Shown: positions 8,700-53,729 of the stretch, piece by piece
How the letters are laid out: each line of letters starts with the position of its first letter
Position numbering within the stretch: position 1 is the stretch's first letter
Source: Pseudomonadota bacterium
GTDB lineage: Bacteria > Desulfobacterota > JAPLJL01
Direction of reading: 5' to 3'
Assembly: GCA_026388655.1 (NCBI GenBank)
Contig: JAPLJI010000069.1
Coordinates: 1-53,730, forward strand
DNA: 53,730 bases
Translations under genes and position numbers: made by a program
The notes under the pieces: model-generated
What the model was told of the DNA's origin: nothing
The model's database searches: none
What the model saw: only the letters and a program-made list of their open reading frames with translations

Positions 8700-8862
8700 G
8701 AGAATTACTGTTAAATCCCAAATCCAAAATCCCAATACTACCAATCAAATCCCAAATCCCAATAACCAATAAAAAAACCTTCGAGATTTGGGAGTTGGGG
8801 TTTGTTTGGAATTTGGAAATTGGGATTTACTTGGGATTTGGTTATTGGTCATTGGGATTTTT
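8700..8862. repeat. Short-word repeat array between imuB and dnaE2
   Basis: No gene is seen. About 8712-8773 has words such as AATCCCAAATCCAAAATCCC. About 8781-8861 has their complements (TTTGGGAGTTGGGGTTTG, GGAATTTGGAAATTGGG), so the 160-bp spacer can fold into one long imperfect hairpin inside the presumed operon transcript. Confidence 0.65.
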
Positions 8863-12827: not shown

Positions 12828-14085
12828 GCACCTCGTAGAGATGGGCCACCTTCATTGGCTTTCCCGCCCGGATCAGCCCGTCTTCAATCTGGAAGATGCA
12901 ACCGGGGCAGGAGGTCACCACCAGGCCGGCCCCGGTTTGGGCGAGAGATTCCACTTTTTTGGCTTGAATCCGGCGCGAAAGATCATAATGTTCGAAGGCG
13001 AAGCTTCCGCCAAACCCGCAGCAGCGGCTTCGCTCGGTGTGCTCGGATAAATCTATCCCGGGCAGTCGGCTGAGCAGAGACCGCGGCTCCTTGGATATTC
13101 CCATTCCCCGGGCCAGGTGGCAGGGGTCGTGATAGGTCAAAAGACCGGAAAGTTTTTTCTCCGGCCGGGGGAGCAGGTCGGGTTTGGAAACCAGGTATTC
13201 CGAGAGGTCCACCACCTTTTTCCCGATTTCCAGAGCCAGGGAGTCTTCTTCCAGGAGCCGGGGCAGCTCCCCTTTCAGGAAGCGGGCGCAGGAAGGGCAG
13301 GGGCTTACGATCAGATCGGGCTGGTAACGGCTGATTATTTCCAGGTTGCGCCGGGCCAGGGCGCGGGCGCCCTTTTCGTCTCCGCCGGCCGAGAGCGGCA
13401 GGCCGCAGCAGATTCTTTCCCGGGGCAGGATGACCCCGGCCCGGGTTTTTCGGATCAGGGAAACCGCGGCTTCCCTGATCCGGGGATAGAAGATGTCACC
13501 CAGGCAGCCGGAGAAAATGAATATCCGGGGCCGGCCGGCCTCGAGGGGCGGAAGATTGATCTCGGGCGTGTCCTTGATGTCCGGCAGGGGATAACTCCGT
13601 TCCGGATCGATTTTATAAAGAAACGGCTTAAGAACCTGCCAGGGTTTAAGTCTTCCCTCTCGGTTTTTCAGGATTTTCGCGGCGGGAAGAAAAGGGAAGA
13701 TCGCCCGGCGGCTGATGGAGGAACCGAGCACGTTCTTGAAAGCGGCTCGTTTCAGGAGCGGGATTCCTTTTTTCTCCTGGAGTATCCGCCGGGAACCGAG
13801 GATGATGGATTCGGTTTTAACCCCGTTGGGGCAGTTGGCCTCGCAGGCCAGACAGAGGAGGCAGGTGGAAAAATGCCGTCCGGTTCCGGCGCTGACCGGG
13901 AGGCGGCCGGAATCCAGCGAACTGCCGAGCGCGACCCGTCCCCGGGGGGAAAAGGACTCGTCTTTCAACTCCTCGTAGGTCGGGCATCCGGCCAGACAGG
14001 TCCCGCAGCGGACACAGGCGGAATAGTCAACCTTTAAGTCCGAGGTCCGAAGTCCTAAATCCGAAGTCTTGCTATCGGTGGTCAT
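12796..14085 (-). CDS. GlcF/CCG-type Fe-S oxidoreductase subunit
   Basis: 429 residues from ATG 14085. Two ferredoxin motifs, CVRCGTCLAGCP and CLLCLACEANCP, sit in the first about 90 residues, followed by two CCG domains. The first has ICCGLPLSAGG and SPCPSCARFL; the second has YHDPCHLARG, RCCGFGGSF and TSCPGCIFQI. This is the layout of glycolate oxidase subunit GlcF and related lactate/heterodisulfide-type subunits, which pass electrons from a flavoprotein. No FAD partner gene lies next to it, so the substrate is open. Residues of about 5-15 (SKTSDLGLRTSDLK) and the last five are encoded by dispersed repeat sequence, so both ends of the gene have been invaded. Confidence 0.85.
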   Translation of the reverse strand: MTTDSKTSDLGLRTSDLKVDYSACVRCGTCLAGCPTYEELKDESFSPRGRVALGSSLDSGRLPVSAGTGRHFSTCLLCLACEANCPNGVKTESIILGSRRILQEKKGIPLLKRAAFKNVLGSSISRRAIFPFLPAAKILKNREGRLKPWQVLKPFLYKIDPERSYPLPDIKDTPEINLPPLEAGRPRIFIFSGCLGDIFYPRIREAAVSLIRKTRAGVILPRERICCGLPLSAGGDEKGARALARRNLEIISRYQPDLIVSPCPSCARFLKGELPRLLEEDSLALEIGKKVVDLSEYLVSKPDLLPRPEKKLSGLLTYHDPCHLARGMGISKEPRSLLSRLPGIDLSEHTERSRCCGFGGSFAFEHYDLSRRIQAKKVESLAQTGAGLVVTSCPGCIFQIEDGLIRAGKPMKVAHLYEVLDNPPNSKSK

Positions 14086-14171
14086 AAATCCAACTCCCAA
14101 TATTAATTCTGATGTTAAGATTAAAATTGGGCAAGGATTAAGATATTTCATAACGGGATTTTTAATGAGAT

Positions 14172-14262
14172 GTCATTCCTGTCCCGCATCAGGGTGCGGG
14201 GTAAACTTCAGCAGGAATCCAGGATTTCTACTTTTTTGGATTCCCACTTCCGTGGGAATGAC
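14172..14262. repeat. GTCATTCC...GGAATGAC dispersed element
   Basis: Ends GTCATTCCTG and CGTGGGAATGAC are inverted. Internally GAATCCAGGATTTC and GGATTCCCAC are typical of this family. Related copies occur at 17233-17301, 27781-27852 and about 37158. The rest of the gap 14086-14273 has no gene. Confidence 0.65.
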
Positions 14263-14273
14263 GAATAAAGCAA

Positions 14274-15380
14274 ATGAGGTATTTTAAAAGTTTTATCATT
14301 TTAGCGTGTTTTCTTTTCTTGATCCCGCCGGGCTTGCTTCAGGCTGGGACCTTGGTTTACCCGGACTCGAGCACGGCGGTAATCCAAAAATCAAAAGGTG
14401 GGGAGCTGCCCGGGAACCGATACCTGGCCCCGGTGGTCTCGCTCCTGCCCGGGGTTTTATATCACGGGCTGGGGGCTTCCTATCTGGGATATGAAAAGGA
14501 TTCCCGCTCCCTTGCCAATCTTGAGCTTATCGGCTTGGGCTTGGCCGGCCTGGGGGGGATGGTAGCGTTTTTATCAGGCGGGGCGGGGGATCTTTATCCG
14601 ATCTATATTCCATTGATATGGAGTGGGGGGGCATTATTTATTAACAGCTACTTGTTCGATTTTTTCGGCACCTTTCAACCGGAGGGCCCTTTACCGCCCC
14701 TTGGGCCAAGGGCATCAGGAAGGATTTCCTACACCTATCTTGAAGATGGGTTAGACAACATATTCCGCATTCTTTCCCTGGATGGCAGCTGGTCGGGCCT
14801 GGGATTCAATTTGCGCGGCCGGGGCATGATGGATAGGGATAAATACTCAAGGCTTGATCTCGAAATAGACCGGCGGGTCTCCCTGGGTTCCGGAAGGTTG
14901 AGTCAGCTTTACCTGGGGGCACAGGGAGGGCGCGAGAGCGTGGAAGTTAATCTTCGTAATTTTGTCGCAGGATTAACTAGTTATCCGATAATTATTAAAG
15001 CTGGAGGTGAGTTTTTCCTGGGTGACTTTATGAGATTTTCCCGGAGCGTAAAGTTCTCTCCGGAGGTGGCATATCTTTTCCAGGGAATAAGGGTAAAAGG
15101 GTCAAATGATTATGCGTATACCCTTGATCCGGTGATCATCAACCGGGTGGAATGGACACTCCATCGCCGGGTTGAAATCGGTGTTGAGCATTCAGTCCGC
15201 CCGGACCTTCTTGTCGGGCAAATCCATAAGTGGATAGGGGCGGTCGGGGTATGGGCCAGGATCTTTCCGCTGGCCGGAACGGAAATATTCCTGGGCGCGG
15301 ATTTTGGGGATGGATACGATTTACGGGTGGGAATAGGTTACTCGTTAGATCAAAAATCAAAGAGCAAAAATCAAAATTAA
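14274..15380 (+). CDS. Predicted outer-membrane beta-barrel protein, unknown function
   Basis: 368 residues. A Sec signal peptide (MRYFKSFIILACFLFLIPPG, cleavage likely after LLQA) is followed by a Gly-rich part with two hydrophobic stretches (about 60-130). From about residue 145 there are many alternating short strands ending in YDLRVGIGYSLD, as expected for a barrel. I do not recognise the family. Four base pairs separate it from a lipoprotein phosphoesterase, suggesting one transcript. The final residues (DQKSKSKNQN) come from a short-word repeat, so the native C-terminal strand is probably GIGYSL. Confidence 0.65.
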   Translation: MRYFKSFIILACFLFLIPPGLLQAGTLVYPDSSTAVIQKSKGGELPGNRYLAPVVSLLPGVLYHGLGASYLGYEKDSRSLANLELIGLGLAGLGGMVAFLSGGAGDLYPIYIPLIWSGGALFINSYLFDFFGTFQPEGPLPPLGPRASGRISYTYLEDGLDNIFRILSLDGSWSGLGFNLRGRGMMDRDKYSRLDLEIDRRVSLGSGRLSQLYLGAQGGRESVEVNLRNFVAGLTSYPIIIKAGGEFFLGDFMRFSRSVKFSPEVAYLFQGIRVKGSNDYAYTLDPVIINRVEWTLHRRVEIGVEHSVRPDLLVGQIHKWIGAVGVWARIFPLAGTEIFLGADFGDGYDLRVGIGYSLDQKSKSKNQN

Positions 15381-15384
15381 ATAT

Positions 15385-16467
15385 ATGAGGAGAAATCGTT
15401 TTTCAACCTGTGATTTGGCCTTAATTTCGACCTTTGCCTTAACCTTAACCTGGCTTTTGTCCGGTTGCTGGATTTCCGGCGCGGACGAACGTTTTCTCCG
15501 GGGTGAGGAGGCCCGGAGACTGGTCCGGGACAATTACGAGGCCTGGATTTCGGCGGGGTCAGTCCGGGAGGAGAACGGCGCCCTGGTTTTTCGGGCTTCG
15601 GAACCCGAGCCGGTCATCCAGGTGTTGCCCCGGGATAATTCCTTCTCTAACTATACCGGGCGGATAGAAAATCTCATCCCGGGGACCCAGTTGATCTATC
15701 CGGATGGGAGCACCAACACGGCCGGGAGGGACCTGCGGGCCGATTTTTACCTTCCTTCCGGGGGAGGCATAATCAATACCCGGGTCCCCGACGGGGAGAA
15801 TAGTTTCTTGTTCGCCGTGATTTCCGACAACCATAATAACCAGAAGGTTTTCGAAAATTTTATTGAGGATGTGAATGGGCGGGAGATAGCGTTCGTGATC
15901 AGCCTGGGGGATTTTACCGTTTTTGACGGGAGCCAGGAGATTGAAAACGCGATCAAATGGTCATCCGAATTAAAAGTGCCCTTTTATACCACCCTCGGGA
16001 ACCATGAGAGCTACGGCAAAGATTGGGAGATGGTGATTGACCATTTTGGCGCTTCCAGTTATTCATTTTCCCTGGCCGGCAGTCGTTTTGTATTTTTGGA
16101 TTCAGCCAATTACGGGCTGGGAAAGGAAACCCGGGACTGGTTCTTGGATCTTCTGGGGGCGGTGACCGAAAAGAACATCATGGTTTTTACCCATGTTTCA
16201 CCGGTGGAGGATATTGATAACCGGGTCCTGGCGTTTAAGGATCAGAAGGAAGGGTTGGAGTTGATCTCGGTGATGTCCCAGGCGGGGGTTAATTATCTTT
16301 TCGCCGGGCACGCGCATTCCTACCGGCATTTTAAGTTTGGCGGGGTTGAGATTTATGTCAGCGGCGGGGGAGGGGGAAGCACGGAGAAAATGAACGGGGC
16401 GGGTTATCATTACCTGCTGGTAAATCTGGCCGGAGAACTTCAGGTCAGGAGGATCAGTCTTGAGTAA
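15385..16467 (+). CDS. Lipoprotein metallophosphoesterase
   Basis: 360 residues. The signal ends in LLSGC (Cys at about 28), a good lipobox. The first about 145 residues are family-free. Then the metallophosphoesterase motifs appear: AVISDNHNN (metal-binding Asp and His), SLGDFTVF, TLGNHES, VFTHVSP and FAGHAHSYRHF. It is predicted to hydrolyse a phosphoester in the periplasm. The neighbours suggest an envelope unit: a barrel protein upstream and a HAD phosphatase downstream that overlaps its stop codon. Confidence 0.83.
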   Translation: MRRNRFSTCDLALISTFALTLTWLLSGCWISGADERFLRGEEARRLVRDNYEAWISAGSVREENGALVFRASEPEPVIQVLPRDNSFSNYTGRIENLIPGTQLIYPDGSTNTAGRDLRADFYLPSGGGIINTRVPDGENSFLFAVISDNHNNQKVFENFIEDVNGREIAFVISLGDFTVFDGSQEIENAIKWSSELKVPFYTTLGNHESYGKDWEMVIDHFGASSYSFSLAGSRFVFLDSANYGLGKETRDWFLDLLGAVTEKNIMVFTHVSPVEDIDNRVLAFKDQKEGLELISVMSQAGVNYLFAGHAHSYRHFKFGGVEIYVSGGGGGSTEKMNGAGYHYLLVNLAGELQVRRISLE

Positions 16468-17164
16468 GAAAAAGGTAAAGATCATTTCCTTTGATCTGGA
16501 CGGAACCCTGGTGGATTTCGAGTTCAACGAGCTGGTCTGGCATCAGGGGATCCCGGAGAAATACGCCGAGAAACACAATCTGGATTTCGAGTCCGCCCGG
16601 GGCCGGGTCCGGGCGGAATACGACCGGGTGACCGACGGCGGGCTTTCCTGGTATGACATCAGGCACTGGTTCAATTTTTTCGGACTCCCGGGAACCCACG
16701 ACGAGCTTTTCGAACGGTTCCGTCACTCGATCCGGACCTTTCCAGAGGTAAAAGAAGTAATGAAGAAACTGCAGGGGATGGGTTACGAAATGGTTCTCAC
16801 CACCAATTCCTCCCGGGAATTTCTCACGATTGAATTGCAGGAGACCGGGCTGGCGCCTTACTTCTCCCGGATTTTTTCCGCCACCTCCGATTTCCGGATG
16901 GTCAAAAAGGTCCCGGAGTTTTACCGGCAGATCCTCGGTCTGCTCGGGACGGATGAAAAGTCGGTTATTCATGTGGGCGATCACTGGAAATTCGATTATC
17001 TCGCGCCCCGGGAGGCGGGGATCGAGTCCTACTTCGTGGATCGAAAATCCGAACGCGAGCCTTCCCGGGAAGAGGGGATCATCCAGGACTTAAGCGAACT
17101 GCTCAAAATTTTAAAAGATAGTCCTAAGCCTTCAGTTCGAAGTCCTAAGCCGAAAAAGAAATAG
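16460..17164 (+). CDS. HAD-superfamily hydrolase
   Basis: 234 residues. Motif I FDLDGTLVDF (about 10-19) holds the nucleophile and acid Asp. Motif II is TTNSS, motif III a Lys in RMVKKVPEF, and motif IV VGDHWKFDY. A helical cap lies between motifs I and II, typical of subclass I phosphatases. The TTG start at 16460 overlaps the upstream phosphoesterase by 8 bp and suggests coupling. The C-terminal KDSPKPSVRSPKPKKK is encoded by an AGTCCTAAGCC-type dispersed repeat and is unlikely to be functional. Confidence 0.83.
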   Translation: MSKKKVKIISFDLDGTLVDFEFNELVWHQGIPEKYAEKHNLDFESARGRVRAEYDRVTDGGLSWYDIRHWFNFFGLPGTHDELFERFRHSIRTFPEVKEVMKKLQGMGYEMVLTTNSSREFLTIELQETGLAPYFSRIFSATSDFRMVKKVPEFYRQILGLLGTDEKSVIHVGDHWKFDYLAPREAGIESYFVDRKSEREPSREEGIIQDLSELLKILKDSPKPSVRSPKPKKK

Positions 17165-17232
17165 TTTAAGGTTGGGAGTGGAAACTTTAGCTTGTAATTC
17201 CTCGTGGTCTTTCCACCGGGTTACTTTATTCT

Positions 17233-17301
17233 GTCATTCCGCACTTGATGCGGAATCCAGTATTATTTGTTCGCCTGGATTCCCGCTTCCGCGGGAATGA
17301 C
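17233..17301. repeat. GTCATTCC...GGAATGAC dispersed element
   Basis: Ends GTCATTCCGC and GCGGGAATGAC are inverted. Internal GGAATCCAG and CTGGATTCCCGC pair with each other. It lies in the 233-bp gap between convergent genes. The gap also holds TAACTGGCTACCGGCTAC-type words at about 17370-17390 and the small stem CTCCGCG/CGCGGAG near 17335-17356, but no gene. Confidence 0.65.
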
Positions 17302-17397
17302 AACCCAAAGCTTAATGATCGTTTTGAAGAAGATACTCCGCGTTCTAAGCCGCGGAGAGGTTTGTTTGGTAACTGGCTACCGGCTACTTGTTACCTG

Positions 17398-18768
17398 CTA
17401 TCTACAGATTTTCTCCGCCAAATCCTGCGCGCTTCTAATGGCCAGCTCGATTCCCACGCCGCTGCCCCCGGCCTCGGATCCGCAGAGATAGAGCCCCTGG
17501 ACCGGGGTTTCCGAAGGAAGACGATTCTTGCCGACCTGTCCGGTTGATTGCCCGGCCCCGATAATCGCCCCGCTTTCGCCCACGGCCTGGTTGATGTCCG
17601 CCGGGGTGGTTTTCTCCACCCAGAGAAGCTTATCCCGGTAGCCGGGGATAAGCCGGTCCAGGGTTTTCAAAATCGCTTCCCGCCATTCCTCAATCCGGGA
17701 AGTGGAGTAGGGGATGATCGCCCCGGCGGTCAAAAGCTGCCGGCCGGGCGGGGCCACCGCGGGGGCGAAGTTGGAAGGGACGGGGCAGAAGATGCTGACA
17801 TCATCGGGGACCAGGTCCGCCCGGGTGTTTTCTTCGTAGAGCTCGGGATTGTCGGACCCGATATGGGTTAATAGTTTCCAGGAAGCGACCGGCTCTTTCA
17901 AAGCCAGGCGCAGGTTGAGCATGCTGTAGGAGTAGGTGAGAGATTGCACTTTCTCCAGATAGTCGTCCGGGAAAAATTCCCGGCCGGTGAGCTCGATAAC
18001 GGTGTGATAGGGATCGGCGTTGGAAATTATCGTCCGGGCGGGGAAAAAAGCTCCCGGGGATTCCAGGCCCCGGACCGCGTTATCCCGGACGAGGATCTTG
18101 GCCGCCGGCGCGGTGGTCAGAATCTTTCCGCCTTTTTCCCGGATAAAATCGGCCAGGGCTTCGGAAATGGACCGGCATCCGCCTTCGGGATAGCCGGAAG
18201 CCCGGGCACCCGCTTCCCACTTCAGGCAGCGGATGAATTCACCGGCGCTGGCTTCAAAGTAGGGCAGGCAGACATAAACCATGCAGATATTGTTGAGGCA
18301 GGAGACGCTCAGGGGATTCCGGGTAAAACGTTGGATATAGCTGCGGAGGTCCTCCAAATCGAATTCGTGGGTTTCCGCGTCGGTCATGGAGGTCATGGTC
18401 TGCAGCATCCGCATCAAGTCCTGGAAATCCCTCCCGGGGATCAGTTCCTCCAGTCCCCGGGGAAAGGCGAAGATTTTTCCCTGGAAACTCGTCAGGGGGC
18501 GGACGTATTGAAAGGTAACCCGGTTTTCCTTTCCCGCGAGCCGGAGAATTTCTCCCAGGGGGCCTTTATCCGAGCGGGAGATGACGTGGGCCCCGAGATC
18601 GATCTGGAAGCCGTCCCGCTCATAGGAGGTTACCCGGCCGCCCACCCAGGAGTTCTTTTCGAGAATGAGAACCCGTTTTCCCCGGGCGGAAAGGATGGTG
18701 CCCAGGGCGAGTCCTCCTATCCCCGCCCCGATGATGGCGAGGTCGTACGGAGATTTAATGGCGTTCAT
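17398..18768 (-). CDS. Phytoene desaturase-like FAD-dependent oxidoreductase
   Basis: 456 residues. The N-terminal dinucleotide-binding motif is AIIGAGIGGLALG (about 11-23), followed by VLILEKNSWVGGRV. The C-terminal flavin motif is GLYLCGSEAGGSGVGIELA. This is the amine oxidase/phytoene desaturase superfamily (NAD(P)-binding Rossmann-like). Such proteins act on carotenoids, on protoporphyrinogen or on unknown polyisoprenoids; no carotenoid synthase is nearby. A CrtC/AttH-like gene lies far away at 49 kb. Likely cytoplasmic or membrane-surface. The start at ATG 18768 leaves only eight residues before the Rossmann strand, as expected. Confidence 0.82.
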   Translation of the reverse strand: MNAIKSPYDLAIIGAGIGGLALGTILSARGKRVLILEKNSWVGGRVTSYERDGFQIDLGAHVISRSDKGPLGEILRLAGKENRVTFQYVRPLTSFQGKIFAFPRGLEELIPGRDFQDLMRMLQTMTSMTDAETHEFDLEDLRSYIQRFTRNPLSVSCLNNICMVYVCLPYFEASAGEFIRCLKWEAGARASGYPEGGCRSISEALADFIREKGGKILTTAPAAKILVRDNAVRGLESPGAFFPARTIISNADPYHTVIELTGREFFPDDYLEKVQSLTYSYSMLNLRLALKEPVASWKLLTHIGSDNPELYEENTRADLVPDDVSIFCPVPSNFAPAVAPPGRQLLTAGAIIPYSTSRIEEWREAILKTLDRLIPGYRDKLLWVEKTTPADINQAVGESGAIIGAGQSTGQVGKNRLPSETPVQGLYLCGSEAGGSGVGIELAIRSAQDLAEKICR

Positions 18769-27632: not shown

Positions 27633-27966
27633 CACGCACCCCCTTTAGAAGCAAATTCCAAATCCCAAATTCCAATTACCAAACAAATCCCAAGCAAATT
27701 CCAAATGAGTCCCAAGTTCCAAACTCTCAGAAGAATTGACTCTAAAATCTATCGCAGTTTGCCGTGAGCTTTTCTTGATTCTGTCATTCCCGCGGAAGCG
27801 GGAATCCAGTTTTTTCCGGAAATATCTGGATCCCTGCTTTCGCACGGATGACGAACTTATTAAAAAGATTAACTAAATATTATTCATAAGAAATTCCAAA
27901 ATAAATTTTATATCCGTTTACAAATAATAGCCTGATTTAAGGCTATTCGGTAGTATAATTCGCACA
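27633..27966. repeat. Intergenic region with word repeats, a GTCATTCC element and an AT-rich promoter zone
   Basis: No gene is seen. 27655-27722 has CAAATTCCAAATCCC-type words. 27781-27852 is a GTCATTCCCG...GGATGAC dispersed element. 27860-27966 is AT-rich and leads into the promoter of the next gene. Confidence 0.6.
27932..27959 (+). promoter_or_regulatory. Candidate -10 box giving a leaderless transcript
   Basis: A perfect TATAAT at 27954-27959 ends seven bases before the ATG at 27967. Transcription would therefore start at or next to the start codon. The -35 region is weak (CTGATT at 27932-27937, 16-bp spacing). No Shine-Dalgarno sequence precedes the gene, which agrees with a leaderless mRNA. 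Confidence 0.45.
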
Positions 27967-28470
27967 ATGCCGAAGCGAACAAAAGAAATGCTTCCCGAGC
28001 ACCGGTTTCTCCTGGAGAATCTTTTCGGGGATGATTTCGGCCGGGTTAAAATTCACCAGGATTTCCTGGCCCGGAGAATTACCCGTCGCCTGAAAGCCCG
28101 GGCGGTCACGATCGGAAACCGGATTTTTATGGCTCCGGATGAAGACCCGGGGGACTATCCTTTCGGTTTCTTGCTCATGACCCACGAGCTGGTCCACGTG
28201 GTCCAGTATCAACGCCAGGGATTTTTACCTTTTCTGGCTAGGTATTTTTGGGATCTCGGCCGGGGATTGATGGCGGGGAAAAGGACGTTTGAGGCCTACC
28301 GGGCGGTTCCCGCCGAGAAGCAGGCTTTTGATTTCGAGGCGGAGATCCGGGAATGGGCCAGGAATAATCCCGAGATCGGTGAGATCCTCAATCGCAAGGA
28401 TTTAAACGCGGAAGAGAAGTTTAAACTTTTAGAGGATGGGTTGACTCAGATTTCTAACCTGCAAATTTGA
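27967..28470 (+). CDS. DUF4157-like putative zinc metalloprotease domain protein
   Basis: 167 residues. The central LLMTHELVHVVQYQRQG gives HExxHxxQ, the zinc motif of the DUF4157 (eCIS core) family. It is preceded by RAVTIGNRIFMAPDE, matching the family's AxTxGxxIff strand. The C-terminal EAYRAVPAEKQAFDFEAEIREW is a long helix with possible third metal ligands. It occurs here alone; in other genomes such domains accompany contractile injection cargo, but nothing of that kind is in this window. There is no signal peptide and no ribosome binding site; a TATAAT box sits directly before ATG. Confidence 0.72.
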   Translation: MPKRTKEMLPEHRFLLENLFGDDFGRVKIHQDFLARRITRRLKARAVTIGNRIFMAPDEDPGDYPFGFLLMTHELVHVVQYQRQGFLPFLARYFWDLGRGLMAGKRTFEAYRAVPAEKQAFDFEAEIREWARNNPEIGEILNRKDLNAEEKFKLLEDGLTQISNLQI

Positions 28471-30058: not shown

Positions 30059-30086
30059 TTGAAATTGGTTGGCGGTTAATTATAAT
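30059..30086 (+). promoter_or_regulatory. Strong sigma70-type promoter of the DUF2148/thiolase operon
   Basis: TTGAAA (30059-30064), a 16-bp spacer, TATAAT (30081-30086). The predicted transcript begins near 30093 and the first gene starts at 30145 with the ribosome binding site AAAGGAG. Confidence 0.65.
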
Positions 30087-30144
30087 TAGCCTACTCTGAA
30101 ATAGGGAATAATAAGAGATTTTATTAAACAGAAAGGAGTTAAGA

Positions 30145-30933
30145 ATGCCAAGAATGTACGCAAAAGAGTATCCCTGGTATTCGCCCTGGGATACCGCCCG
30201 AAGAGAAAACGGGGTCTTGGCTGCCCGTTTGATGCTGAACGCGGCCCTGACCGCTCCTACAACTGGCGGCGAGGATCATACCGAAGGCGAAATAGTTTGG
30301 GGCGATGACGAACTGGAAGGGATCGCCCGGAAGATGGAGGAACTCGCTTACACCTTGAAAAACAAGCGGATCGAGGACCTGCTGAAGTACGAGGCGGTTA
30401 TGGTCCGCGCCTCCGACTGCATTCTTTTCCTCGGCGATTACCGGGCCCGGGTTAGTCCCTTTGATATCGATTGCGGCATCTGCGGGGGAAAAGAAGGTTG
30501 CGCCTATGTGTACAAGCGCCACCGCACCGCCGCCGGCCTGATTGATCCGACCGACCGGGACATGGGCACCACTCCCATCCAGGGTCCTCTCTGCCAGGTG
30601 CGGGTGATGGACCTCGGGTATAACATCGGCTCGGCCCTGTGGATGGCCAACCGGCTGATGGTGGATTGCCGGCCCTCGATGATGATGGGAATCGCCGCCC
30701 AGAAGCTGGGCTACTGCAAGAATTCTCCCCTGGTGGTGGCCCTGCCGGTCGGCACCCTGGCCAAGAACCCTTACGTTGATATTTGCTATGACTACCATGT
30801 GACCAATATGGACCGGATCCTGGACGAGGTCAGAAAAATTTACGTTCTGCCCCGCCAGATGGGAACCGACTTCCGGCGCTACCGGGTAGTGAAGGAAGGC
30901 GAGTCTTCCGGTTCTGAAGGAGAGGAGGAATAA
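30145..30933 (+). CDS. DUF2148 ferredoxin-domain protein, first paralogue
   Basis: 262 residues. It matches the COG4739/DUF2148 pattern. A central Cys cluster, DCGICGGKEGC plus a later Cys in QGPLCQVRVMDLG, gives a CGxCGxxxC...C set able to bind a 4Fe-4S cluster. It is followed by NIGSALWMANRLMVDCRP and LGYCKNSPLVVALPVG...AKNPYVDI. The N-terminal about 80 residues are extra relative to the family. The function of DUF2148 is unknown. It is the first gene of a five-gene unit, two bases from its paralogue. The acidic C-terminal tail (GESSGSEGEEE) is unusual. Confidence 0.8.
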   Translation: MPRMYAKEYPWYSPWDTARRENGVLAARLMLNAALTAPTTGGEDHTEGEIVWGDDELEGIARKMEELAYTLKNKRIEDLLKYEAVMVRASDCILFLGDYRARVSPFDIDCGICGGKEGCAYVYKRHRTAAGLIDPTDRDMGTTPIQGPLCQVRVMDLGYNIGSALWMANRLMVDCRPSMMMGIAAQKLGYCKNSPLVVALPVGTLAKNPYVDICYDYHVTNMDRILDEVRKIYVLPRQMGTDFRRYRVVKEGESSGSEGEEE

Positions 30934-30935
30934 AT

Positions 30936-31853
30936 ATGCCGATAATTGATTCGAGAAAATTAGCCCAGGAAGGATTGTTGGAAGCGGCGAAACTCGCGGT
31001 CCTTTCACTTCACAAAGCCCCGCAGATTACCGGGCGGACCGAGGTCAAGGCCGTCGTGGTTACCGGCGACGCCTTCAAGCCTCTGATGGGGGTAATGGAG
31101 GAGATCGAGGCGCTCGGTTTTGAGGGGATGATGAAATTCCCCTTCATGCCCCTGTTTCTTGATTATATCTGCTACAAAACCGCGATCGAGGAAGGGTGGA
31201 ACCCGGTGGCCATTATCCTGGGGGCGGATCTGACCGTTTCCCAGAGCGGATGGGACTGTGGAGCCTGCGGATTCCCGTCCTGCGCGGCTTTTAACAAGTA
31301 CGCCCGGAAACACAAGAGCCCCGGACCCCTCCTGGGACGCGGCCTGGGGATGGGCCCCTCCTGCGCGATGAAGATGCTGGACCTATCCATCGCCTGTGAT
31401 TATGTGACCGCCACCCTGCATAATTTGAACGTGGAAACCCGGGCCCAGGGGACCTTCGCGATCCTGGCCCAGGGTCTGGAATACATCCCGGGGACGAGCT
31501 GTTGCATCGTCAACCCGGTGGGACCGATCGCGGAGCTTTACTGGTACAGCCGGAAACCCCTGGGCGGGATGATACCGATCCCGGCGAGCGGCGAGATCCC
31601 GGACATGGTTTACCAGATGGGCCTGACCTTCCTCCGGGAAAGACATCCCGATGCCTGGGAAGCCCTGCCGGCGTTGACCCATCCCTGGATCAAGGGTCAC
31701 GGGAAATGGTGGGAAAGGAGCAAGGAATACGTCAAGATCGAATCCGACCCGCAGATCGAAAAGGACGCCGAGGATCTTACCAAGATTTTCCTCCAGGCGA
31801 TTGACAAACGGAAAGCCGAAGTGAAAAAGCTCCGGGAAGAGGGCAATCTTTAA
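30936..31853 (+). CDS. DUF2148 ferredoxin-domain protein, second paralogue
   Basis: 305 residues, related in layout to the gene just upstream. The Fe-S region reads SGWDCGACGFPSCAAFNKY (about 106-124), with a fourth Cys in MGPSCAMKMLDLSIA. The CGACGFPSC form also resembles the Fe-S module of RnfB-like and corrinoid proteins (PF04060), so that family is the alternative. A CCIVNPVGPIAELYWYSRKP segment and a C-terminal helical extension are not explained. With its neighbour it probably forms a heterodimer, given the 2-bp spacing. It is followed after 27 bp by the DUF35 gene, which suggests a link with thiolase chemistry. Confidence 0.78.
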   Translation: MPIIDSRKLAQEGLLEAAKLAVLSLHKAPQITGRTEVKAVVVTGDAFKPLMGVMEEIEALGFEGMMKFPFMPLFLDYICYKTAIEEGWNPVAIILGADLTVSQSGWDCGACGFPSCAAFNKYARKHKSPGPLLGRGLGMGPSCAMKMLDLSIACDYVTATLHNLNVETRAQGTFAILAQGLEYIPGTSCCIVNPVGPIAELYWYSRKPLGGMIPIPASGEIPDMVYQMGLTFLRERHPDAWEALPALTHPWIKGHGKWWERSKEYVKIESDPQIEKDAEDLTKIFLQAIDKRKAEVKKLREEGNL

Positions 31854-31880
31854 TTTATTGTTTGAAAGGAGGCTACTAGC

Positions 31881-32375
31881 GTGGCAGAAGAATACGGTCC
31901 CAACCGAGGTCCCTATGGGCATCTTTCAATCCTCGAAGACGAGGGAGAAATCCCCCTCAGGGAAGGGATCCTGAAATTCCCGACCAAGCCGGGCGAACCC
32001 GCGCGGATCATCGCGAGCAAGTGCAAGAAGTGCGGAGACATCTCTTTTCCGCAAAAATTGTATTGCGGAATATGCGATGGAGAAGAGATGGAAGAGCATG
32101 TTTTGAGCCCCCGCGGCAAGGTTTACACTTACACCGTTGTGCACCAGATGGGGACTCCCGGGGTCGAGGTTCCCTATGCCTTGGTCCTGGTCAAGGTTCC
32201 CGAAGACGATAAGCTCCTGATCGCCGGCCAGCTCACGGGTGTGAAGATGGAGGACGTGAAGATCGGGATGGACGTGGAGATAATCTTTGGCAAATGCCGG
32301 ATGGGGATGCTGGGTCTCCTGGCCGGTCAACCGCAGGACGTCATCGGCTATCTGTTCCGGCCGGTAAGAAAATAA
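31881..32375 (+). CDS. DUF35 Zn-ribbon/OB-fold thiolase partner protein
   Basis: 164 residues. The rubredoxin-like zinc ribbon has CKKCGD and CGICDG (about 48-65). An OB-fold follows: GKVYTYTVVHQMG, PYALVLVKVPEDDKLLIAGQL. DUF35 proteins bridge or channel acyl-CoA substrates to thiolase-superfamily enzymes, as in archaeal thiolase/HMG-CoA synthase complexes and BbsA of anaerobic toluene degradation. The thiolase gene follows at 32552. GTG 31881 has the ribosome binding site AAAGGAGG. About 35 residues before the ribbon are longer than in minimal members. Confidence 0.85.
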   Translation: MAEEYGPNRGPYGHLSILEDEGEIPLREGILKFPTKPGEPARIIASKCKKCGDISFPQKLYCGICDGEEMEEHVLSPRGKVYTYTVVHQMGTPGVEVPYALVLVKVPEDDKLLIAGQLTGVKMEDVKIGMDVEIIFGKCRMGMLGLLAGQPQDVIGYLFRPVRK

Positions 32376-32384
32376 AATTATTAA

Positions 32385-32512
32385 AATCCCAATGGCCAAT
32401 AAATACCAAATCCCAATTAAATCCCAATTTCTAAATCCCAAAGAGAATCATTTGATTATTGGAGTTTGGGATTTGTTTGGTAGTATTTGGATTTGGGATT
32501 TTGGATTTATCG
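32385..32512. repeat. Short-word repeat array inside the operon
   Basis: AATCCCAATGGCCAATAAAT words (about 32385-32440) face TTGGAGTTTGGGATTTGTTT words (about 32459-32508), forming one long imperfect hairpin between the DUF35 and thiolase genes. Confidence 0.6.
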
Positions 32513-32551
32513 CTTAAAAAATCGCAGACGGAGTAAAACGGAGGAAAGAAA

Positions 32552-33772
32552 ATGAGAGATGTAATCACAATCGGCGCCGGGATGACCAGGTTCGGCAAAT
32601 ATGACGGCGCCAACATGCCCTGGCGCAATCATGAACAGCTGGGCCGGGAGGCCTGTATCAGCGCCCTGAAACACGCCGGCGTTAATCACCGGGACATCCA
32701 GGCCGCCTACTTCGGCCAGACCGCGAGCGGGATGATCCAGATCGGCCAGCGGGTGTGCGACTGGCTGGGGATCTCCGGGATCCCGATCTACAATCACGAA
32801 AACGCCTGCGCCACCAGCCTGGCGGCTTTCCGCCAGGCATATATCGATGTCGCCTCCGGGATGCATGACCTCGTCCTGGTGGCGGGTGTCGAGAAAATGA
32901 GCCTGGTTAAGGCCCGGAAGAAAGGGGAAGGCGGCGGCGGAGGCGGCGGCATGGGATTGATGGGCGGCGGGGGTGGCCCGATCGTGGTGCCCGAGGGCTA
33001 TATGTTCCTTGCCGATCTGGGGATTATCATGCCGGCTTTCTTCGCGCTCATGGGCACCCGGCACATGCACGATTACGGGACCACGCGGGAGCAGTTCGCC
33101 CAGATCTCGGTGAAAAACCACCGATGCGGGGCGATGAATCCTTATGCCCAGTACCAGAAGGAAGTAACCCTCGAGCAGGTTCTGAACTCCCGGATGATCT
33201 GCGACCCGATCACGCTCCTGCAGTGCACCCCCACGGGTGACGGGGCGGCGAGCGTGATTCTGGCCTCGAGCAAGGTAGCCAAAAAATATACCACCAAGAT
33301 GGTCAAGGTGGCCGGATCCATTGTCATGAGCGGGGAATACAAGGCCCACCAGGGTAAGTTCGCTTCGGTGGCTTCCTGCAAGGTGGCGGCCAAGATGATC
33401 TATGAGCAGACCGGGATCGGTCCCAAGGATCTGAACGTGGTGGAACAGCACGACTGCTTCACTCCCCATGAGCTCGTGACTTACGAGGACCTGGGGATCT
33501 GCAAGCCGGGTGAAGGCGGGAAACTCGTGGACCAGGGGGTCACCGCTCTGGGCGGCAAGGTGCCGTTCAACGTGAGCGGCGGGCTCCAGTCCAAGGGGCA
33601 TCCGATCGCGGCTACCGGAGTGGCCCAGATCACCGAGCTGGTCTGGCAGCTTCGGGGAGAATGTGGAAAGCGGCAGGTGGAAGGGGCCAGGGTAGGTCTC
33701 GCCCATAACGGCGGCGGGATCGGTCCGGGTCTCGAGCCGGGCCTCGCCAGCCTGACAATTCTAAAGGTGTAG
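32552..33772 (+). CDS. Thiolase (SCP2/acetyl-CoA acetyltransferase-like)
   Basis: 406 residues with ribosome binding site GGAGGAAAG. The nucleophile is in NHENACATSLAAF (Cys 86). His 300 lies in VEQHDCFTPHE and the second His in SKGHPIAATG (about 350). At the C-terminal loop, where degradative thiolases have CGGGG, this protein has LAHNGGGIG, as in SCP2-type thiolases. A Gly-rich loop, GGGGGGGMGLMGGGGG (about 127-142), is shared with the thiolase at 51615. It probably cleaves or forms a beta-ketoacyl-CoA with the upstream DUF35 protein as partner; chain or ring specificity is unknown. Confidence 0.88.
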   Translation: MRDVITIGAGMTRFGKYDGANMPWRNHEQLGREACISALKHAGVNHRDIQAAYFGQTASGMIQIGQRVCDWLGISGIPIYNHENACATSLAAFRQAYIDVASGMHDLVLVAGVEKMSLVKARKKGEGGGGGGGMGLMGGGGGPIVVPEGYMFLADLGIIMPAFFALMGTRHMHDYGTTREQFAQISVKNHRCGAMNPYAQYQKEVTLEQVLNSRMICDPITLLQCTPTGDGAASVILASSKVAKKYTTKMVKVAGSIVMSGEYKAHQGKFASVASCKVAAKMIYEQTGIGPKDLNVVEQHDCFTPHELVTYEDLGICKPGEGGKLVDQGVTALGGKVPFNVSGGLQSKGHPIAATGVAQITELVWQLRGECGKRQVEGARVGLAHNGGGIGPGLEPGLASLTILKV

Positions 33773-33826
33773 CTCTCAGGGGAGGAATTATCCCCAGGGA
33801 TTGGGGAGAGGGGGACAAACCGGATC

Positions 33827-34303
33827 ATGAATCCGGGAGAGAAAAAGATCGGGCTTAAGGATATCCCCAGGATGCGGGTGGCGTTTGTCAGCCGGACGGG
33901 GCCTTACAGCCAGATCCCGGAAGCGATGAAAACCCTGATGGGCTGGGTAACGAACCGGGGGATCAAGCCCCTGGGTCCGCCCATGGTAATCTACCATAAC
34001 AGCCCGGCTTCGGTCCGGCCGGACGAGCTCCGCTGGGATATCGCCATCCCCGTTCCAGACGGTGTTGATGGGGAAGACGAGATCGCGGTCAGGGAACTCC
34101 AGGGCGGGAAATTCGTTTACGCTCTACACCAGGGGCTATATGAGCAGGTCGGGGCGGTTTACGATGAGCTATTCACCTTCATCGGCCAGAACAGCTTACG
34201 ACCTACCGGGCCGCCGATGGAGATATATCTCTCGGATCCCGGCAAGGTCAAACCCCAGGATTTGACTACCGAGATCCGGGTTCCGGTGGCCGCGGCGGGT
34301 TGA
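33827..34303 (+). CDS. GyrI-like small-molecule-binding domain protein
   Basis: 158 residues. The SHS2-type repeat of the GyrI/AraC effector-binding fold is visible: MRVAFVSRTGPYSQIPEAM in the first half, GKFVYALHQGLYEQVGAVYDELF in the second. LRWDIAIPVPDG and TEIRVPVAA are the strands with family acidic positions. It has no DNA-binding domain, so it would bind or hydrolyse a ligand rather than act as a regulator. It is the last gene before the terminator at 34341, so it belongs to the thiolase transcript. Confidence 0.82.
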   Translation: MNPGEKKIGLKDIPRMRVAFVSRTGPYSQIPEAMKTLMGWVTNRGIKPLGPPMVIYHNSPASVRPDELRWDIAIPVPDGVDGEDEIAVRELQGGKFVYALHQGLYEQVGAVYDELFTFIGQNSLRPTGPPMEIYLSDPGKVKPQDLTTEIRVPVAAAG

Positions 34304-34340
34304 TATTCAGAATAGATATTTTGCCCGGATTAAACGGGAT

Positions 34341-34370
34341 AAAAAAGGCGGCTTTTCAGCCGCCTTTTTT
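34341..34370. terminator. Bidirectional rho-independent terminator
   Basis: AAAAAAGGCGGC, loop TTTTCA, GCCGCCTTTTTT. The stem is perfect, with A-tract and T-tract on both sides. It ends the DUF2148-DUF35-thiolase-GyrI unit on the plus strand and would also stop minus-strand transcripts. Confidence 0.92.
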
Positions 34371-34404
34371 ATCCTAGACAGTTCTTTTGTTTTTTCAAAA
34401 CAAT

Positions 34405-51102: not shown

Positions 51103-51558
51103 TCAGATCGGGCGGAAGCAGACCATGTCCGCCAGGGCCCCGGTGGTTTCTTCCCTTAAGATCAGCTCCGCCGGCATCCCGACGTGAACCTTCTTCCAAT
51201 CATCAATTTCCAGCTGTCCCATCATCCAGGAATCGGAACCGTCCAGTTTGACCTGGACCGCCACTGATATCTCGTCCACCGGGTTGCCCCGGACATCGGC
51301 CAGGTTGACGGTATAACAGGCAATCTTGCCTTTCTTGCTGACCTCGACCACGTCCTGGATGTCGATGAAGCATTTGCGACAATATGAGGGCCCCGGGACA
51401 TAAACCATGCCGCATTTGTGGCACTTCCGGCCGAGGATCTTTTTCTCCTTGAACCCCTGAACCAGGAGCTCAAGACCGTCGGCCTCGATCCGCCACTTGA
51501 GCAGGCTCATATCCAGGATGTCGCTTACCTGCCGGGTTTCTTTTTTCTCTTTTTGCAT
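51103..51558 (-). CDS. DUF35 Zn-ribbon/OB-fold thiolase partner protein
   Basis: 151 residues. The zinc ribbon has CHKCGM and CRKCF (about 46-66), followed by an OB-fold: GKIACYTVNLAD, ISVAVQVKLDGSDSWMMGQLE. The first about 30 residues form a longer lead helix (SDILDMSLLKWRIEADGLEL). It is the third gene of the minus-strand thiolase set and is predicted to bridge its two thiolase subunits. It diverges from the first DUF35 protein (31881), so the two sets are not recent copies. Confidence 0.87.
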   Translation of the reverse strand: MQKEKKETRQVSDILDMSLLKWRIEADGLELLVQGFKEKKILGRKCHKCGMVYVPGPSYCRKCFIDIQDVVEVSKKGKIACYTVNLADVRGNPVDEISVAVQVKLDGSDSWMMGQLEIDDWKKVHVGMPAELILREETTGALADMVCFRPI

Positions 51559-51614
51559 TATTGGCCTCCTTAATTCGCGAGTTGGTTTAATCGCATTCCA
51601 GATTTATCCGCCCC

Positions 51615-52862
51615 TTACCGTTTGACCGGTTCATCCCCGACAATGGTGATGGTGACAAACTGGAACAATCCCCCCCAACCGTGGGCCAGGGCGTTCTTGA
51701 CCCGGCGCGGAACCTGGTGCCCGCCCTCGGCCATCCCCATCACCTGGAGGGAAGCCTCCGCGACCCGCACCATGGCGGAAGCCCCGATAGCGTTGGTGGA
51801 AACCACCCCGCCCGAGGGATTAACCGGCATTTCGCCGTCAATCGCGAGGCGGCCTTCGTCGATGGCCTTGCAGCTATTGTCGACCAGGTGGAGCTTTTCG
51901 GGCCACATCAGTTCCTGGTGGGCGAACCCGTCGTAAACCTCGCACATCTGAATTTCCTTTTTCGGATTCTGGATCCCGGCCAGCTGGTAGGCCTTGGGGG
52001 CGGCGATTTTTTCGCAGATGGCCTGCTCCGCCGGGTCATTAATCTGGCCGTCAATTAGGTTCCCGGTGGTGGCGTCCGAAGAAGCGGTGGCCACGGCCTT
52101 GACCCAGGCCACCCGGTCGGTGTCGGCGAATTTCTTGACCTTTTCTTCCGCGACCAGGATCATAACGCAGGCTCCGCAGGAAGTGGGGCAGGTATGACCG
52201 AACCGGAGGGGGTAGGAAACCATCGGGGTTTTCGCGATGTCCGCGGCCGTGCAGTTGGGATGCTGGAGGTGGGCGTAGGGGTTCTTGGCGGCGTTAGACC
52301 GGGCCTGGGCCGCCATTTTGTCGATGTGTTCCGGAGTTCCCTTGGCCTTGGCCAGGTAGGATAAAGCCTGGAAGCTGGCGCCCCCGGTGGAGCCGCCTCC
52401 TCCGAGGAGTCCCATTCCGCCGCCCCGGCCCCCGCTCATGTCCGGGCCGAACTGAAACAGGGAAAAGGCCTCCGGGAGAACGATTCCCATAAGGCCGACC
52501 TGGGCGTCGCCCTCGTCATGTTTTTCCCAGCCGATGACCATGGCGACGTCAAACATCCCGGAGGCCACGCAATAATAACCCCCGTGGAAGACCGACATCC
52601 CGGTGGTTCCCCCGGTGGAGATCCGGAGGACCGGCTTGCCCGCCGCGCCGATATGGTCCGAGAACCAGAGGTGGGGATAATTGATCCCCTCGAAGGTGGG
52701 CATGTTTCCTTCCACCACGACCCCGATATCGCTGTGTTTCATCTTGGTTTTCTTCAAGGCGTTCGCCACCGCCGGCTGGATCATTTCCGGGATGTTGACG
52801 TCCGGGCGCTTGGCCACGAAGCGGTCATTGTAACCGACTGAAATGATTGCCACGTTTCTCAT
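51615..52862 (-). CDS. Thiolase-fold protein lacking catalytic Cys and His
   Basis: 415 residues from ATG 52862, with GAGGAGG eight bases upstream. The thiolase fold is recognisable (VAIISVGYNDRF, VASGMFDVAMVIGWEK, AEKLHLVDNSCKAI, VNPSGGVVSTNAIGA, NALAHGWGG). At the nucleophile site it reads STGGTTGMS, so Cys is replaced by Gly at about residue 85. At the HDxF site it reads EVYDGFAHQE, so His is Tyr. It carries the same Gly-rich loop as the other thiolase (GGRGGGMGLLGGGG, about 145-158). It is probably a structural subunit that pairs with the catalytic thiolase encoded just upstream. Confidence 0.87.
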   Translation of the reverse strand: MRNVAIISVGYNDRFVAKRPDVNIPEMIQPAVANALKKTKMKHSDIGVVVEGNMPTFEGINYPHLWFSDHIGAAGKPVLRISTGGTTGMSVFHGGYYCVASGMFDVAMVIGWEKHDEGDAQVGLMGIVLPEAFSLFQFGPDMSGGRGGGMGLLGGGGSTGGASFQALSYLAKAKGTPEHIDKMAAQARSNAAKNPYAHLQHPNCTAADIAKTPMVSYPLRFGHTCPTSCGACVMILVAEEKVKKFADTDRVAWVKAVATASSDATTGNLIDGQINDPAEQAICEKIAAPKAYQLAGIQNPKKEIQMCEVYDGFAHQELMWPEKLHLVDNSCKAIDEGRLAIDGEMPVNPSGGVVSTNAIGASAMVRVAEASLQVMGMAEGGHQVPRRVKNALAHGWGGLFQFVTITIVGDEPVKR

Positions 52863-52892
52863 ATTTAACACCTCCTCATCTTTAACTTGGGC

Positions 52893-53729
52893 CTAGTTAC
52901 CGAGGACGAATACCACGTTATGCTGGGCCGCCATGCCGATCTGCCCGTGGGCCAGGGCGAGCTTGGGGGCCTTTTTCACCTGGTGTTCCCCGGCTTCTCC
53001 CCGCAGCTGGGCGCTGGCTTCCGCGATCCGGATCAACCCACTGACGGTCAGGGGGTTGGCAGCCTGTGGGCCGCCGGACGGGTTGATCGGGGTCTTGCCT
53101 TCAATTTCCAGCCAGCCTTTGCTGACCGCGTTGGGCCCGGAGTTCTTGGGAATCAGCCCCAGGGCTTCGGCGAAAATCGGCTCCTGGGAGACATAAGTGG
53201 TATGGAGTTCCGACACCCCGATTTTCTTGGCGGGGTCGGTGATCCCGGCCATCTTGTAAGCCGTTTTGGCGGCCTTTTGCAGGGAATCCATTTTCACCAG
53301 GTCTCTCTCGCCCAGGTAATAGGTGTCCTGGCAGAAGCCCACCCCTTTGATCCAGACGGGATTCTTGACCAATTCCTTGGCTTTTTCCTCGGAGGCAAGG
53401 AGGATGGCGCAGGCTCCATCCGCCGGGGTGTAGGCGTGCAGCTCGCGCAGGGGCAGGGCCAGCGCCCGGGAAGCGAGCACGTCTTTTTCCGTGGCGTTGG
53501 CTTTTTTCCGGAGGGCCAGGGGATTCCGGGCGCCGTTCCGGAGGTTTTTGACCGCGAGGCCCGCCAGCTGTTCCTCCGTGAGCTGGGACTTGGCCATATA
53601 GGCCTGGGCCTGGAGGGCGGCCGCGGTGATCTCGTTGACCAGCTTGGCCTGCCGTTCATAAATAGGGTCGAGGACGTAATCCATGATCCGGGGAGATCGG
53701 AATTCCGATCCGCCCATCGCGTAGCCCAC
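52893..53729 (-). CDS. Thiolase, partial at window edge
   Basis: The visible 278 residues are the C-terminal two-thirds of a thiolase. They contain ELHTTYVSQEP (catalytic His retained), KTPINPSGGPQAANPLTVSG and LALAHGQIGMAAQHN. The nucleophile region lies beyond the window. It ends 30 bp before the degenerate thiolase and is probably the first of three co-transcribed genes: catalytic thiolase, degenerate thiolase, DUF35 protein. Confidence 0.87.
   Translation of the reverse strand: MGYAMGGSEFRSPRIMDYVLDPIYERQAKLVNEITAAALQAQAYMAKSQLTEEQLAGLAVKNLRNGARNPLALRKKANATEKDVLASRALALPLRELHAYTPADGACAILLASEEKAKELVKNPVWIKGVGFCQDTYYLGERDLVKMDSLQKAAKTAYKMAGITDPAKKIGVSELHTTYVSQEPIFAEALGLIPKNSGPNAVSKGWLEIEGKTPINPSGGPQAANPLTVSGLIRIAEASAQLRGEAGEHQVKKAPKLALAHGQIGMAAQHNVVFVLGN

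Follow-up and report, generated by a model that had tools for sequence, protein, structure and literature searches.

Paired DUF2148 proteins with a predicted nitroreductase-type fold and a four-cysteine insert in acyl-CoA operons of anaerobic bacteria

Background

What do two adjacent DUF2148 proteins do in an operon that also encodes a DUF35 protein and a thiolase? The question is raised by a locus on contig JAPLJI010000069.1 (assembly GCA_026388655.1) of a bacterium deposited as Pseudomonadota and placed among the Desulfobacterota by GTDB; the whole stretch of 53,730 nucleotides that was analysed is referred to here as the window. To our knowledge, no function has been assigned to the DUF2148 family, and the literature that we searched contains no mention of it by Pfam, COG, InterPro or DUF name, nor a matching account of such an operon in sulfate reducers or of an iron-sulfur heterodimer with a nitroreductase fold.

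Organization of the operon

All five open reading frames of the locus are on the forward strand, and Pfam agrees with the families proposed for them in the initial annotation: A (DUF2148-a, 262 aa, 30145-30933), its paralogue B (DUF2148-b, 305 aa, 30936-31853), C (a DUF35 or OB_ChsH2-type subunit, 31881-32375), D (an SCP2-type thiolase, 32552-33772) and E (a stand-alone protein matching Pfam GyrI-like, 33827-34303). There is no ligase, dehydrogenase or SDR among them. A promoter-like site on the same strand, TTGAAA-N16-TATAAT at 30059-30086, shows 11 of 12 matches, and 3' of E an 18-bp hairpin of -29.5 kcal/mol (about 34336-34374) lies between A- and T-runs and could act as a terminator on both strands; it is absent from the list of a simple terminator scan. 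In a sister genome (locus L050 of genome G049), whose A and B are 87% and 80% identical to those of the window, the same two hexamers stand upstream of A at equal spacing, and the order A-B-C-D is kept behind the same divergent upstream genes. The boundaries first proposed for the operon, a promoter on the left and a terminator on the right, are thus borne out by conserved hexamers and a strong hairpin, respectively. E had no match in the related loci searched and was not found with a DUF2148 pair elsewhere; its membership in the operon is therefore unsupported. The sister contig ends before its position.

A transcript break had been considered at the AT-rich, palindromic, dispersed repeat that fills the spacer between C and D (32376-32551). 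This spacer measures 176 bp in the window and 67 bp in the sister genome, which lacks the repeat, and similar words are present at other window sites. The repeat thus represents a lineage-specific insertion, and we rejected it as a conserved transcript break. The repeat words AAATCCCAA / TTTGGGATTT occur at 32376-32551, 8713-8852, 27658-27685 and 28502 of the window and build a long hairpin in the spacer. A small stand-alone eCIS_core protein encoded at 27967-28470 is conserved in the sister genome.

Family and fold of the DUF2148 proteins

Both A and B are members of Pfam DUF2148 (PF09918), with 58.8 and 30.8 bits, respectively, at a gathering cut-off of 25, and they share ancestry along nearly their whole length (hhalign 99.3%, E 1.6e-20). 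Searched against the PDB by sequence, as single sequences and as profiles, they gave no significant match, NCBIfam gave no useful one, and among 40 A members 4 hit the nitroreductase family PF00881, all of them only weakly (best E 0.052).

Structure prediction pointed to the nitroreductase superfamily. With 40 homologues for A and 35 for B, AlphaFold yielded a good model of B (pLDDT 82.8, pTM 0.81) and a moderate one of A (pLDDT 66.9), in which the core is good and the insert at residues 105-155 poorly defined. All 50 PDB matches listed by Foldseek for the A model belong to this superfamily (best E 1e-4), as do those listed for B except rank 50 (probability 0.13), at a best E of only 0.01; every match listed by VIA falls there too, with top Z scores of 13.3 (A) and 9.3 (B). 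Profile-profile comparison with 15 nitroreductases, which is independent of AlphaFold, gave E values of 2.1e-7 for short DUF2148 proteins, 7.2e-7 for the combined profile, 6.4e-5 for B and 2.2e-3 for A, the last being modest when taken alone; eight unrelated families of the same operons, serving as controls, reached 0.028 to 0.7. Together, these computations show A and B to share a predicted nitroreductase-superfamily fold, as found in PF00881 proteins such as NfsB, iodotyrosine deiodinase, BluB and the C-domain of FbiB. The fold itself is known, and that of DUF2148 may already be annotated in databases.

Cysteine insert and missing FMN motifs

DUF2148 proteins differ from the nitroreductase superfamily in the lack of canonical FMN motifs, in an Fe-S-type insert with four cysteines, and in forming an unlike paralogous pair in acyl-CoA operons. 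In alignments the insert comes after a beta strand of the nitroreductases and before the helix next to it; its cysteines are C110, C113, C119 and C150 in A and C108, C111, C116 and C143 in B. The pattern CGxCGxxxC that the initial annotation had ascribed to both proteins is present in B (CGACGFPSC), whereas the version in A is one residue longer (CGICGGKEGC). In the wider form C-x2-C-x4/5-C...GP-x-C, the four cysteines are 99-100% conserved across 93 sequences from five groups, and 34 of 35 B proteins show a partial match to Pfam FeS. Four such residues would fit one predicted [4Fe-4S] cluster per subunit.

Among 15 nitroreductases of related genomes, each of the FMN motifs RxSxR (phosphate) and AP[ST]xxNxQ (loop) was detected in 14, against 0 of 93 DUF2148 proteins. 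The ribityl phosphate of FMN is reported to be held by Arg18, Ser20 and Arg22 in NfnB (PMC8484813) and by R24 and R28 in AlbA (PMC11055893), and the flavin site at the nitroreductase dimer interface has been described in both studies. The absence of both motifs from DUF2148 indicates that the usual FMN site is gone, and the family should thus not be filed as a canonical FMN nitroreductase. It also makes the cluster, combined with a rebuilt flavin site or acting without flavin, the likely redox centre.

A and B could bind flavin through other residues; with the FMN site rebuilt in this way, the pair might be an enoyl- or dienoyl-CoA reductase that receives its electrons from NAD(P)H or ferredoxin. 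The nitroreductase fold includes flavoenzymes that form or reduce C=C bonds, among them AlbAB, which carries out an alpha,beta-dehydrogenation (PMC11055893); CLA-ER (4qlx) is among the VIA matches of B, and the GltD-like module found in some B proteins (see below) is a known type of NAD(P)H donor. With both canonical motifs missing from all 93 sequences, we consider a flavin-dependent reductase possible but treat it as tentative. The cyclodipeptide oxidase AlbAB resembles A/B in its two genes, its nitroreductase-fold subunit and its action on C-C bonds; in contrast to A/B, it has a covalent FMN and uses cyclic dipeptides as substrates (PMC11055893). AlbB has no homology to characterised families, and AlbAB is therefore not a pair of paralogues.

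Pairing of the two DUF2148 types

At 36 of 40 a-type loci a b-type gene is located nearby on the same strand, and some of the four exceptions are due to gene-caller misses or contig ends. In a quick tree of the 93 sequences, with SH-aLRT support only, A and A' form one clade (98) and B and B' another (97), where A' and B' denote the paired proteins of a second operon family described below, and each type has a single origin. Because A groups with A' and B with B', the split between the two types predates both operon families; by these phylogenetic and positional criteria, their pairing is ancient and has been kept adjacent. A candidate A-B fusion in L057 was rejected, as it consists of a run of N (an assembly gap) and then an unrelated reading frame.

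GltD-like insertion in B

At three loci (L080, L081, L078) the B protein contains a module homologous to the NAD(P)H-FAD-4Fe4S part of GltD and dihydropyrimidine dehydrogenase (Fer4_20 and Pyr_redox_2), which is nested inside the DUF2148 protein directly before the CGACG motif and is absent from B of the window. These loci represent two assemblies, L080 and L081 coming from one MAG and L078, which includes a run of N, from another. GltD-like modules usually serve as an electron link from NAD(P)H to partner centres or the reverse, and the insertion thus suggests electron exchange of B with NAD(P)H in the lineage concerned. At L081, the fusion is followed by a DUF169-like protein (6376-7025, recognized by eye).

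Genomic context in relatives

The related loci were collected with patterns built from A and are thus biased toward its relatives; most belong to Desulfobacterota, and single MAGs labelled Bacillota, Nitrospinota and Abyssobacteria also contribute. Because many of the contigs are truncated, neighbour counts are lower bounds. Near the 40 pairs we counted acyl-CoA dehydrogenases at no fewer than 23 loci, thiolases at 20 or more, AMP-ligases at 16 or more, SDRs at 12 or more, PaaK at 10 or more, DUF35 at 7 or more and EtfA at 6 or more. The commonest layout is c4 - CoA ligase - A - B - acyl-CoA dehydrogenase - thiolase - SDR, often beside a divergent sigma-54 activator and at some loci continued after the SDR by EtfA, an ETF-quinone-type Fe-S oxidoreductase and EtfB. 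In a second family the order is TetR - c4 - A' - B' - ligase - dehydrogenase - thiolase - SDR (TetR and c4 assigned by eye), and PaaK-DUF35-thiolase-A-B and A-B-SDR-x-DUF35 also occur. The pair operon recurs across sulfate reducers, including the cultured Desulfatibacillum alkenivorans and Desulfocicer vacuolatum. At the loci examined, no such neighbour occurred within six genes of a single DUF2148 gene (about 183 aa), which ties the acyl-CoA link to the pairs.

The initial annotation had asked whether the association of DUF2148, DUF35 and thiolase recurs. Pairs together with a thiolase and/or DUF35 are present in many genomes, which makes a redox-linked role in acyl-CoA metabolism well supported; the exact gene order was retrieved from the sister genome only.

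Since A-B-dehydrogenase is the commonest order and ETF genes are near few pairs (EtfA being counted near 6 of 40), A/B might perform no acyl-CoA chemistry itself and, in place of ETF, simply shuttle electrons for the operon's acyl-CoA dehydrogenase. However, several operons encode both A/B and EtfAB, and in the window and the sister genome the pair has no adjoining dehydrogenase gene; we regard a pure shuttle as rather doubtful. The same operons, with ligase, acyl-CoA dehydrogenase, SDR and thiolase conserved and no hydratase beside the pair at most loci, could also be read as missing an enoyl-CoA hydratase, which A/B would supply by using a [4Fe-4S] cluster as Lewis acid on a nitroreductase scaffold. 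This is unlikely: four near-invariant cysteines suggest a fully coordinated cluster, whereas aconitase-type hydratases have three, the NAD(P)H-linked GltD-like insertion points to redox chemistry, and a hydratase may be encoded elsewhere.

Most DUF2148-pair operons are headed by the gene for c4, a conserved protein of about 130 aa (7848-8243 in L090, and relatives) that had no Pfam or PDB match; a resemblance to lipid carriers of the SCP2-like type is only an impression. At L076, an HMG-CoA-synthase-like protein (13172-14635) and an HpaB-like protein (15958-17544) are encoded beside the pair, and the former also matches the DUF35 profile and is likely fused.

DUF35 protein and thiolase

C combines a zinc ribbon (CxxC...CxxC) with an OB domain (Pfam zf-ChsH2, i.e. 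DUF35, and OB_ChsH2_C), and D matches Thiolase_N and Thiolase_C_1 and has in alignments the nucleophile-position cysteine (NACAT), HDCF and GHP of an SCP2-type thiolase. Measured against the NCBIfam equivalog models for the benzoylsuccinyl-CoA thiolase BbsAB, both are far under the cut-offs (64.2 of 250 bits for C, 252.6 of 750 bits for D), and compared with BbsAB and other DUF35-thiolase complexes the window operon has the DUF2148 pair in addition. Like C-D, the steroid aldolases Ltp2 and Sal have a thiolase fold and a DUF35 partner; their aldolase motifs are YDHF and YDCY (PMC12329534), instead of which D shows HDCF and the nucleophile-position cysteine.

According to the initial annotation, the pair might join C and D in one stable complex and directly assist condensation or cleavage. 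A-B-DUF35-thiolase is the order in the window and the sister genome, DUF35-thiolase genes adjoin A-B at L063 and L064 and are near at L076, and in related systems DUF35 subunits provide the scaffold on which multi-enzyme complexes are built (PMC12329534). DUF35, however, was counted near only 7 of the 40 pairs and is thus missing from most, D retains its own catalytic residues, and the usual companions of the pairs form a whole acyl-CoA oxidation set. While the redox-linked part of the claim is well supported, Fe-S assistance of the thiolase step itself is therefore unsupported, and we judge such a complex improbable. The contig end of the window (51103-53729) carries, on the opposite strand, a second DUF35-like gene (51103-51558, resembling C by phmmer only) and two thiolase-like genes (51615-52871 and 52893-53729, both matching Thiolase_C_1).

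Proposed role

On balance we favour, with modest confidence, the reading that A and B form an iron-sulfur heterodimer with a nitroreductase scaffold, which serves acyl-CoA metabolism as a dedicated redox component instead of acting in the thiolase step; the probabilities attached to the alternatives overlap with this general reading and are not meant to sum to one with it. As the unlike subunits of a dimer, A and B would each bind one [4Fe-4S] cluster in the insert and together act as an iron-sulfur oxidoreductase or as an electron carrier. The dimer would handle electrons for an acyl-CoA intermediate of the pathway encoded around the pair in relatives, i.e. CoA ligase, acyl-CoA dehydrogenase/ETF, SDR and thiolase with or without DUF35. 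Most likely it would oxidise or reduce a C=C bond adjacent to the thioester, and in a later step C-D would cleave or condense the product. This chemistry is preferred by analogy with nitroreductase-fold enzymes acting on C=C bonds and because of the NAD(P)H module; against it, operons with ETF and the ETF-quinone-type oxidoreductase already provide an acceptor for the electrons of the dehydrogenase, and the window operon lacks ligase, dehydrogenase and SDR genes altogether. A more far-reaching version, which we put forward as speculative, is that two [4Fe-4S] clusters took the place of FMN in DUF2148 pairs. The pairs would then be a branch of the nitroreductase superfamily devoid of flavin and a new type of iron-sulfur oxidoreductase, catalysing a redox step on acyl-CoA thioesters that has so far gone unrecognised in anaerobes. 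If true, the replacement of flavin by Fe-S on this scaffold would be an unusual case of cofactor exchange in evolution.

The combination of lost FMN motifs, an Fe-S insert, a constant unlike pair and an acyl-CoA operon is undescribed in the literature searched. DUF2148 thereby gains a predicted fold and probable cofactor, along with a constant partner and a recurring metabolic setting in sulfate reducers, and with cultured hosts among them its function becomes directly testable. The MAG PL23a_bin.76 (G077) encodes five divergent DUF2148 pairs (L034, L036, L040, L041, L043), which suggests several parallel acyl-CoA operons in one organism.
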